The translations under genes and the position numbers were made by a program. A stretch of 64,000 nucleotides of DNA from Nitrospira sp. (GTDB taxonomy: Bacteria > Nitrospirota > Nitrospiria > Nitrospirales > Nitrospiraceae). Each line of letters opens with the position of its first letter. Position 1 is the stretch's first letter. The DNA is taken from the NCBI GenBank assembly GCA_005116955.1, contig SWDI01000002.1, positions 265,187 through 329,186 on the forward strand. The letters are read 5' to 3'. A model generated the notes under the pieces. It searched no databases. It saw only the letters and a list, made by a program, of their open reading frames with translations, and was not told the origin of the DNA. This document shows positions 1 to 16,090 of the stretch, in pieces.

Positions 1-98
1 ACATACGCCAATACAACAAGCAGCCCAAACCCGTGAAGTGGAAGTACTTCGATCCATCGCGACGAATTACTCCCGAATCAATCGTTACAGGCCACTAG
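1..98 (+). mobile_element. 3' part of a MITE-like element (partial copy)
   Basis: These 98 bases are identical (98/98 by eye) to the reverse complement of 49344-49441. That is the end portion of the complete 196-bp inverted-repeat element at 49344-49539. The copy ends at 98 with the terminal repeat GTTACAGGCCACTAG; beyond it the two loci share no sequence except a chance C. The rest of this copy lies left of the window. Its reading frame is open and runs straight into the helicase gene. Confidence 0.8.

Positions 99-12737: not shown

Positions 12738-12741
<4 letters not shown>
11968..12741 (-). CDS. lepB: Signal peptidase I
   Basis: LepB cleaves signal peptides at the periplasmic face of the inner membrane. 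The 257-residue protein has a charged N terminus, one clear membrane segment (about residues 47-68) and the catalytic dyad: Ser75 in [10 protein letters not shown] and Lys144 in [12 protein letters not shown]. Box [18 protein letters not shown] is also present. It overlaps lepA by 4 bases, which suggests translational coupling. The lepA-lepB pair is a classic arrangement. Confidence 0.97.
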
Positions 12742-14537
<1,796 letters not shown>

Positions 14538-14564
14538 ATCCTAGCTCATTGGTAAAAATGCGTC

Positions 14565-14593
14565 ATTATAGTAACTGCTTCCTGGGTTGTCAA
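14565..14593 (-). promoter_or_regulatory. lepA operon sigma-70 promoter
   Basis: Read on the minus strand, TTGACA (14593-14588) is followed after exactly 17 bases by TATAAT (14570-14565): a full consensus promoter about 28 bases before the lepA ATG. Its -35 box overlaps by five bases the -35 box of the divergent bioA promoter. Confidence 0.85.
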
Positions 14594-14615
14594 AGAGATC
14601 GCCTCCACCTATAAT
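14587..14615 (+). promoter_or_regulatory. bioA sigma-70 promoter
   Basis: TTGTCA at 14587-14592 and TATAAT at 14610-14615 are separated by 17 bases, pointing toward bioA with a leader of roughly 100 bases. The -35 hexamer is shared with the divergent lepA promoter, offset by one base, so two RNA polymerases could hardly bind both at once. Confidence 0.75.
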
Positions 14616-14722
14616 CACGCGCCGCTATCGAGGCCACTCCCTCGTCCATCGGGAGTCGTCAAGCGTCAGTCACAGATCGTCCAGTCTAATCCCAGGATTA
14701 AAAGACGATATTTCATGGAGTC

Positions 14723-16090
14723 ATGACTCGACCACCCTCTACGAAGCAGCTAAGGAACTGGGACCACCGCTATCTCTGGCATCCGTTTACCCAGATGCAA
14801 GAGTGGGCACAGGAAGATCCGCTGATCATCGAGCGCGGGAACGGTTCCTACCTCATCGATACGGAAGGAAAACGCTATCTCGATGGCACCTCGTCCATCT
14901 GGGTGAATCTCCATGGACACCGACATCCTGTCCTGAACCGCGCCATCAAGAAACAGCTCGACAACATCGCCCACTCCACGTTCCTGGGACTCTCCAATCC
15001 ACCAGCTATCGAGCTGGCACGCGCCTTGATCCGGATCGCACCAAAGGGGCTCACACGCGTCTTCTATTCAGACAACGGTTCGACGGCGGTAGAAATCGCG
15101 CTGAAGATGGCCGTCCAATACTGGCAGCAGCGGCATCCGGAGGCCGGCCTCAAAAATACGTTTCTCCATCTCAAGATGGCGTATCACGGCGATACGATCG
15201 GAGCCGTGAGCGTCGGCAATATCGCGCTGTTTCATTCTCGGTTCAAACCGCTGTTGTTCCCAACTCTGGCGGCAGAACCACCCTATTGTTACCGCTGTCC
15301 GCTCAAACTCGCCTATCCCTCCTGCAAGATGGCCTGCATCGATCCAATTGAACAAATCTTGAAACGTCGTCATCGCGAACTAGCCGGATTCATCATCGAA
15401 CCACTGATGCAAGCGGCCGCCGGTATGATTCCCCAGCCGGACGGGTATCTGAAACGAGTCCGAGAACTTTGCACGAAATACAACGTCCTCTTGATCACCG
15501 ATGAAGTCGCGACGGGTTTCGGGCGAACCGGCAAGATGTTCGCGTGCGAGCATGAACGGATCACACCGGATCTGATGGCGATCAGCAAGGGACTCACCGG
15601 CGGGTATATGCCGCTTGCGGCGACCCTCACGACCGATGAAATCTATCGAGGATTCTTGGGGACCTACGACGAATTCAAGACTTTCTTTCATGGGCACAGT
15701 TTTACCGGAAATCCCCTAGGCTGTGCCGTAGCCCTGGCCAATCTCCAAGTGTTCCGCCAGGAGAAAACACTGTCCCGACTGTCCGCAAAGATCAAGATGT
15801 TGACCCAATGGTTGAAGCCGATCGCTGATATTCCTCATGTCGGCGACATCCGACAGCGTGGGTTCATGGTTGGGATCGAGCTGGTCCAAGACAAGACAAC
15901 CAAAACACCGTACCCCCTCAGCGCCAAGACTGGTCACCACGTAGCGGCCATCGCCCGATCGAAGGGACTCATCTTGAGACCTATCGGGAACGTACTTGTG
16001 CTCATACCTCCCCTCTCGACCACAACAGAAGAATTAAAGAAAATGCTAGAAATCATCAAGAAATCCATAGAGACTCTGCACAGTGATTGA
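14723..16090 (+). CDS. bioA: Adenosylmethionine-8-amino-7-oxononanoate aminotransferase
   Basis: BioA makes 7,8-diaminopelargonate in biotin synthesis using S-adenosylmethionine as amino donor and PLP as cofactor. The 455-residue product has the diagnostic HPFTQMQEW near residue 20, the PLP phosphate contacts SDNGSTAVEIALKMA, DEVATGFGRTGKMFA (260-274) and the PLP lysine Lys289 in AISKGLTGG. ATG 14723 has GGAG just upstream. No other biotin gene is in the window, so the pathway must be split over loci. Confidence 0.95.
   Translation: MTRPPSTKQLRNWDHRYLWHPFTQMQEWAQEDPLIIERGNGSYLIDTEGKRYLDGTSSIWVNLHGHRHPVLNRAIKKQLDNIAHSTFLGLSNPPAIELARALIRIAPKGLTRVFYSDNGSTAVEIALKMAVQYWQQRHPEAGLKNTFLHLKMAYHGDTIGAVSVGNIALFHSRFKPLLFPTLAAEPPYCYRCPLKLAYPSCKMACIDPIEQILKRRHRELAGFIIEPLMQAAAGMIPQPDGYLKRVRELCTKYNVLLITDEVATGFGRTGKMFACEHERITPDLMAISKGLTGGYMPLAATLTTDEIYRGFLGTYDEFKTFFHGHSFTGNPLGCAVALANLQVFRQEKTLSRLSAKIKMLTQWLKPIADIPHVGDIRQRGFMVGIELVQDKTTKTPYPLSAKTGHHVAAIARSKGLILRPIGNVLVLIPPLSTTTEELKKMLEIIKKSIETLHSD

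Follow-up and report, generated by a model that had tools for sequence, protein, structure and literature searches.

Putative back-to-back promoters drawing both -35 boxes from one heptamer between lepA and bioA in Nitrospira and most of its order

The region between lepA and bioA in a 64,000-base stretch of Nitrospira sp. DNA (contig SWDI01000002.1; the whole stretch is called the window below) carries two promoter sequences that face away from each other and take their -35 boxes from the same heptamer, TTGTCAA (Table 1). We consider it probable (roughly 0.78), judging from the sequence and its comparison across genomes, that these are two real, near-consensus sigma70-type promoters set back to back. 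Toward lepA, TTGACA-17-TATAAT (14593-14565, minus strand) matches the consensus at all 12 positions, and toward bioA, TTGTCA-17-TATAAT (14587-14615, plus strand) matches it at 11 of 12. Both had been put forward in a preliminary description of this DNA and were confirmed by direct reading and a consensus scan. That description also placed the two -35 boxes in one octamer, offset by one base; the offset holds, while the element proved to be a heptamer, with five bases common to both boxes (14588-14592). What was established directly is the sequence of the pair, the absence of a second such pair from the genome, and the way in which the pair is conserved and lost among relatives.

Consensus-like sites as such are not enriched here, since the 10 kb around the site hold seven scoring at least 9 of 12, against 6.3 expected from shuffles. 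The two promoters facing lepA and bioA are the only ones among these seven to score above 9 of 12. Across the genome (3.65 Mb), exact TTGACA-16..18-TATAAT occurs at eight sites and the reversed control at none, and a search for the paired pattern (17/17 spacing, as many as three mismatches allowed) finds it once, between lepA and bioA. The two promoters lie on opposite strands, point apart and overlap in a core element (five -35 bases), and mutual exclusion would follow from their geometry. We file the site under divergent overlapping (back-to-back) promoters, a known class of which this deeply conserved instance is new. No description of the lepA/bioA promoters in Nitrospira appeared in the literature searched, a scope outside which older reviews of divergent promoters fell.

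Table 1. Positions of the genes, promoter boxes and neighboring elements in the window.
Feature	Position	Strand	Basis or remark
lepA (elongation factor 4), TTG start	12738..14537	minus	TIGR01393
bioA (adenosylmethionine-8-amino-7-oxononanoate transaminase)	14723..16090	plus	TIGR00508
lepA promoter -35 box TTGACA	14588..14593	minus	exact consensus (consensus scan)
lepA promoter -10 box TATAAT	14565..14570	minus	consensus scan; spacing 17 or 18 in 66/66 genus loci
bioA promoter -35 box TTGTCA	14587..14592	plus	one mismatch to consensus (consensus scan)
bioA promoter -10 box TATAAT	14610..14615	plus	consensus scan; spacing 17 or 18 in 64/66 genus loci
Common heptamer TTGTCAA, containing both -35 boxes	14587..14593	none	direct reading and consensus scan
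GTAACTGC, part of the lepA spacer adjoining the lepA -10	14571..14578	none	slow-changing within the genus

The gene names in the preliminary description were upheld, as lepA scored 973 bits against TIGR01393 (cut-off 534) and bioA 558 bits against TIGR00508 (cut-off 405); the intergenic region measures 185 bases. The lipopolysaccharide-related genes that it had assigned to the lepA side are indeed present, with genes for signal peptidase I, heptose-7-phosphate kinase and KDO cytidylyltransferase lying 3' of lepA on the same strand, and pyrG, kdsA and others further along that strand by our own reading of the sequences. An L-2-hydroxyglutarate oxidase gene comes after bioA, and bioB is located on a different contig. 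The promoters are predicted to be active, with transcription starting near 14559 on the minus strand and near 14621 on the plus strand, about 63 bp apart, and with leaders of about 22 nt for lepA and about 100 nt for bioA.

The lepA start codon is TTG in all 66 genus loci described below. A two-codon open reading frame, ATG-AGC-TAG (14541-14549, minus strand), ends three bases before it, and an ATG-NNN-stop just before the lepA start was seen in 36 of those 66 loci; translational coupling is possible, as is chance. On the other side, the idea that bioA leaders generally share a conserved RNA structure found no support (median z -0.4, 13 of 64 leaders below -2; z -1.7 for the bioA leader region of the window itself), and Rfam gave no family match near the promoter site, its matches in the window being two tRNAs only. 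Five bioA leaders (L044, L046, L052, L121 and L151) contain long inverted repeats or GCGTATGGC / GCCATACGC units. Such repeats differ strongly between species, and in L046 and L052 they occupy the place expected for the bioA -10.

Conservation in related genomes, which the preliminary description had suggested as a check, was found, the arrangement being kept in most of the order. The exact-pattern search covered 395 genomes of the phylum, 143 in the order and 252 outside it (group counts were made by hand from the listing), and matched 125 of them, namely 103 of the 143 and 22 of the 252. A control with the bioA-side spacing lengthened by six bases matched 0 of 143 and 9 of 252, respectively. 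By family of the order, the pattern was exact in 97 of 110 genomes in f1, in 6 of 6 in f3 and f4 together, and in 0 of 27 in f2. Of the pattern loci in the order, 29 were retrieved, and each of them sits between lepA and bioA; the location of the remaining matches in the order was checked where they were among the genus loci. The 13 misses in f1 comprise one region split by an insertion, one lost bioA -10, four cases of TATACT, one doubled heptamer, four genomes without a lepA match at the strict threshold and two with only a lepA fragment lacking the start.

So that the pattern itself did not choose the loci, those found with the BioA protein were counted apart (n = 150). An adjacent divergent lepA-bioA pair was present in 120, giving 88 distinct intergenic sequences; the 30 dropped loci lacked a lepA start (25) or a bioA start (4) or had a gap above 900 (1). 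Both promoters are exact in 81 of the 88, the lepA promoter is exact in 85, and the bioA -10 reads TATAAT or TATACT in 84. From BioA searches (89), from the pattern search only (24) and from a lepA search only (17, from genomes mostly without the exact pattern), 130 distinct intergenic sequences were assembled for the order. The heptamer is intact in 128 of these. As the lepA -10, 115 sequences have TATAAT and 15 a single-base variant of it; on the bioA side, 112 have TATAAT and 8 have TATACT; a good bioA -10 at the expected spacing is missing from 10, in one of them (L186) owing to a doubled heptamer. Of the 25 BioA-chosen loci without a lepA start, 20 belong to distant relatives (L159-L161, L164-L180), where the retrieved sequence, up to 2.5 kb on each side, showed no lepA and hence no pairing with bioA.

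The lack of exact matches in f2 counts against the two-promoter explanation, retention of the heptamer notwithstanding. Among the f2 loci read (16 of the 27 genomes), 15 have bioA next to lepA and 15 have an intact heptamer; the lepA -10 has drifted to TACAAT, TAGAAT or TAAAAT, and as the bioA -10 some loci have TATAAT or TATACT and several nothing recognizable. One f2 locus without bioA (L201) still has the far-side TATAAT.

Within the genus, the BioA search gave a match in each of 79 genomes, in some just a distant aminotransferase, and loci were taken from 70; the other nine were omitted or lacked a full-length bioA start among the matches listed. In 67 of the 70 loci lepA lies alongside bioA, within 900 bases in 66, and in three no lepA start was found. 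In all 66 close loci ATTATA (the lepA -10) and TTGTCAA are kept, with a lepA spacing of 17 (64 loci) or 18 (2), and the bioA TATAAT is kept in 64, with a spacing of 17 (57) or 18 (7). The central base of the heptamer is T in every one of the 66, which gives lepA a perfect -35. A tree built from the coding DNA of the two genes (55 rows with 17/17 spacing) implied zero changes in the heptamer, a mean of 6.7 at lepA third codon positions, and 3-10 in 12 of the 16 columns of the bioA spacer. The -10 columns also stand at zero, partly because having exact boxes was the condition for entering the tree; the 11 loci outside the tree comprise two without the bioA -10 and nine with an 18-base spacer. 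A further element, GTAACTGC, changes slowly within the genus although it is no core promoter element known to us (13 inferred changes over its eight columns, against the mean of 6.7 per lepA third codon position). Unlike the heptamer, it is largely not retained outside the genus.

Several natural variants depart from the standard layout. In L032, about 2.4 kb of inserted DNA lies between lepA and bioA; the pair remains on the lepA side, where the bioA -10 reads TATAAC, and the bioA side has a second TTGTCA-18-TATAAT without a lepA -10. In L186 (TTGTCAAAGAGTTGTCAA) the heptamer is doubled, and each copy stands 17 bases from one -10. These two loci fit the existence of two separate promoters. 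Other sequence replaces the bioA -10 in L046 and L052, where the lepA promoter is intact. L139 has no bioA -35 left and a lepA -35 with a single mismatch, and a further TATAAT stands closer to bioA; in L158 the bioA boxes are degraded and lepA has TTGACA-17-TAAAAT. The L032 insertion also contains a small open reading frame that resembles, by eye, a ribbon-helix-helix protein, and the heptamer is present on both sides of it.

These patterns of retention and loss bear on an explanation that we regard as unlikely, in which the lepA promoter alone is important, the bioA promoter is a tolerated by-product of TTGACAA, and bioA is transcribed mainly from elsewhere. The bioA start would then lie in the 74-284 bases between the bioA -10 and the start codon, a range taken from loci in which that -10 is present. 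Such a reading is favored by the lepA -10, which matches at least 5 of 6 positions in all 130 sequences while 10 have no good bioA -10, and by the occurrence of the lepA promoter without bioA in five of eight class relatives. Against this, the bioA TATAAT sits in a fast-changing stretch and yet is rightly spaced in 64 of 66 genus loci, it is kept in 81 of the 88 distinct sequences chosen by BioA, and the bioA side of L032, where the genes are split, has a TTGTCA-18-TATAAT of its own. The heptamer could be retained for the lepA promoter alone, and thus only the bioA -10, which is sometimes lost, speaks directly for bioA.

The class relatives also suggest an order of events. Eight lepA loci were read in other families of the class, and none of them has bioA within 1.5 kb. 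In five (L203-L207) the sequence upstream of lepA still contains ATTATA-15..17-TTGTCAA, and none has the far-side TATAAT. Because the same heptamer occurs in these relatives without bioA, the lepA promoter is probably the older of the two; in the simplest history, bioA arrived afterward and its promoter was added on the opposite face of the existing -35.

We also considered regulators that might act at the site. In Escherichia coli, the bioA/bioB promoters are repressed by BirA at the BirA operator. The single biotin-ligase match in this genome has BPL_LplA_LipB as its sole Pfam domain at E <= 1e-6, and a search of its open frame at that threshold found no BirA-type DNA-binding domain. A biotin repressor of the BirA type was set aside on this ground and because bioB lies on another contig, and the site does not belong with promoters controlled by a BirA that has a DNA-binding domain. 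More generally, the heptamer, GTAACTGC and the GG..AAG flanks might together form an operator for a regulator of both genes, as UmuDAb is at ddrR-umuDAb, a proposal that we find rather improbable. The columns beside the boxes do change little within the genus, and in Acinetobacter the mapped divergent -35s overlap one arm of a repressor site (PMC7273328). Such an operator is hard to reconcile with GTAACTGC being largely absent outside the genus while the heptamer stays, with a biotin ligase in which no DNA-binding domain was detected, and with the identical heptamer at lepA promoters that have no bioA beside them.

Under the two-promoter reading that we prefer, the layout would follow from the -35 consensus itself. 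TTGACAA is the consensus -35 plus an A, and the opposite strand reads TTGTCAA, which is itself a 5/6 match to a -35. A strong promoter would thereby offer a second, opposite-facing -35, and one -10 at 17 bp would complete a second promoter. The central base of the heptamer suits one side only, and T favors lepA. Sigma region 4 binds a -35 in one orientation at a time, and the lepA and bioA promoters should therefore be mutually exclusive at binding; the view in the preliminary description that RNA polymerase could hardly occupy both thus accords with the geometry. Any effect of this exclusion on lepA or bioA would depend on promoter strength, and the near-consensus boxes place the site where competition would be expected. 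The competition for initiation between lepA and biotin synthesis raised in the preliminary description is plausible, because both promoters are near consensus.

A stricter version, which we find somewhat doubtful, would make the site a fixed splitter: strong polymerase binding toward lepA would keep bioA transcription at a constant share, so that biotin synthesis would vary inversely with lepA operon expression. The central base gives lepA a perfect -35 in every genus locus examined, and strengthening one direction lowered the other at E. coli bidirectional promoters (PMC12825309). The balance of box quality is nevertheless reversed in some f2 loci (lepA TAGAAT, bioA TATAAT), so a fixed ratio is not kept.

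Bidirectional promoters with a common -10 element were reportedly described by Warman et al. in 2021. For five natural examples in E. coli, a later study found no substantial competition in basal transcription; improving a -35 lowered transcription in the opposite direction, and one of the five responded differently to the change (Warman et al., 2026; PMC12825309). In the sense of Warman et al., a bidirectional promoter has a common -10 and starts 7-25 bp apart, and separate divergent promoters are excluded; the lepA/bioA site falls outside this definition, its two -10s lying apart (Table 1). The resemblance is that a short symmetric element serves two opposed polymerases, one binding at once. 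In the E. coli promoters, the -10 is common and the starts are mostly 10-23 bp apart, whereas between lepA and bioA the -35 is common and the starts would be about 63 bp apart. The E. coli bioA promoter likewise overlaps a divergent one, but its partner is bioB rather than lepA and the -10 is common, making it a different system (PMC12825309).

Two other systems offer partial parallels. At Acinetobacter ddrR-umuDAb, the divergent promoters have mapped starts, and a single arm of an inverted repeat is overlapped by both -35s (PMC7273328). Unlike the lepA/bioA pair, they are proposed to be under the repressor UmuDAb, their boxes are farther from consensus (TTGACG, TTGAAT), and ddrR is known from Acinetobacter only (PMC7273328). 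The Pc/Pr promoters of pLS20 are also divergent and overlapping, and polymerase itself is thought to act as the switch; the -10/-35 of one is proposed to coincide with the -35/-10 of the other, and, in contrast to lepA/bioA, one promoter is weak and regulator-dependent (PMC4207663).

The same shared-heptamer layout stands between other divergent gene pairs in some of the 22 genomes outside the order that matched the exact pattern. In family f29 it lies between lysS and yceD-plsX, in L217 with genes identified by Pfam and in L218-L221 with genes identified by eye. By Pfam, it also separates a GntR-family regulator from a PPDK_N protein (L213) and a thioredoxin from a response regulator (L224). 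Two further loci of other families of the phylum, L214 and L230, have the layout between other divergent pairs. Outside the order, 13 of 56 matches fall at bioA-side spacers of 16-18 against 5.4 expected (P 0.002, with 31 gap values treated as equal), in a set where several rows are mutual orthologues and one place is counted twice, and in a peak that is broad (17-20). This weakly supports an enrichment of the layout in the phylum outside the order. No match was found in three genomes from other groups.

We tentatively suggest that promoters sharing a -35 heptamer (TTGTCAA / TTGACAA) may form a class of their own beside those sharing a -10, with lepA|bioA as a long-kept case and others such as lysS | yceD-plsX. 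Such a class would arise because a strong -35 nearly equals its own reverse complement. None was described in the literature searched, including the accessible parts of PMC11661796, PMC10268837 and PMC4981023.

If both promoters are active, the site would be an exclusive two-way promoter, apparently free of a regulator, kept across most of an order that includes nitrite oxidizers. The arrangement also hints that a new promoter could arise, with few changes, on the reverse side of an existing one. The natural variants, with a doubled heptamer, split genes or a lost -10, are ready templates for tests, and the lepA/bioA pair, given two active promoters, provides a simple system in which to ask whether the steric competition of strong promoters serves a purpose or is merely tolerated.
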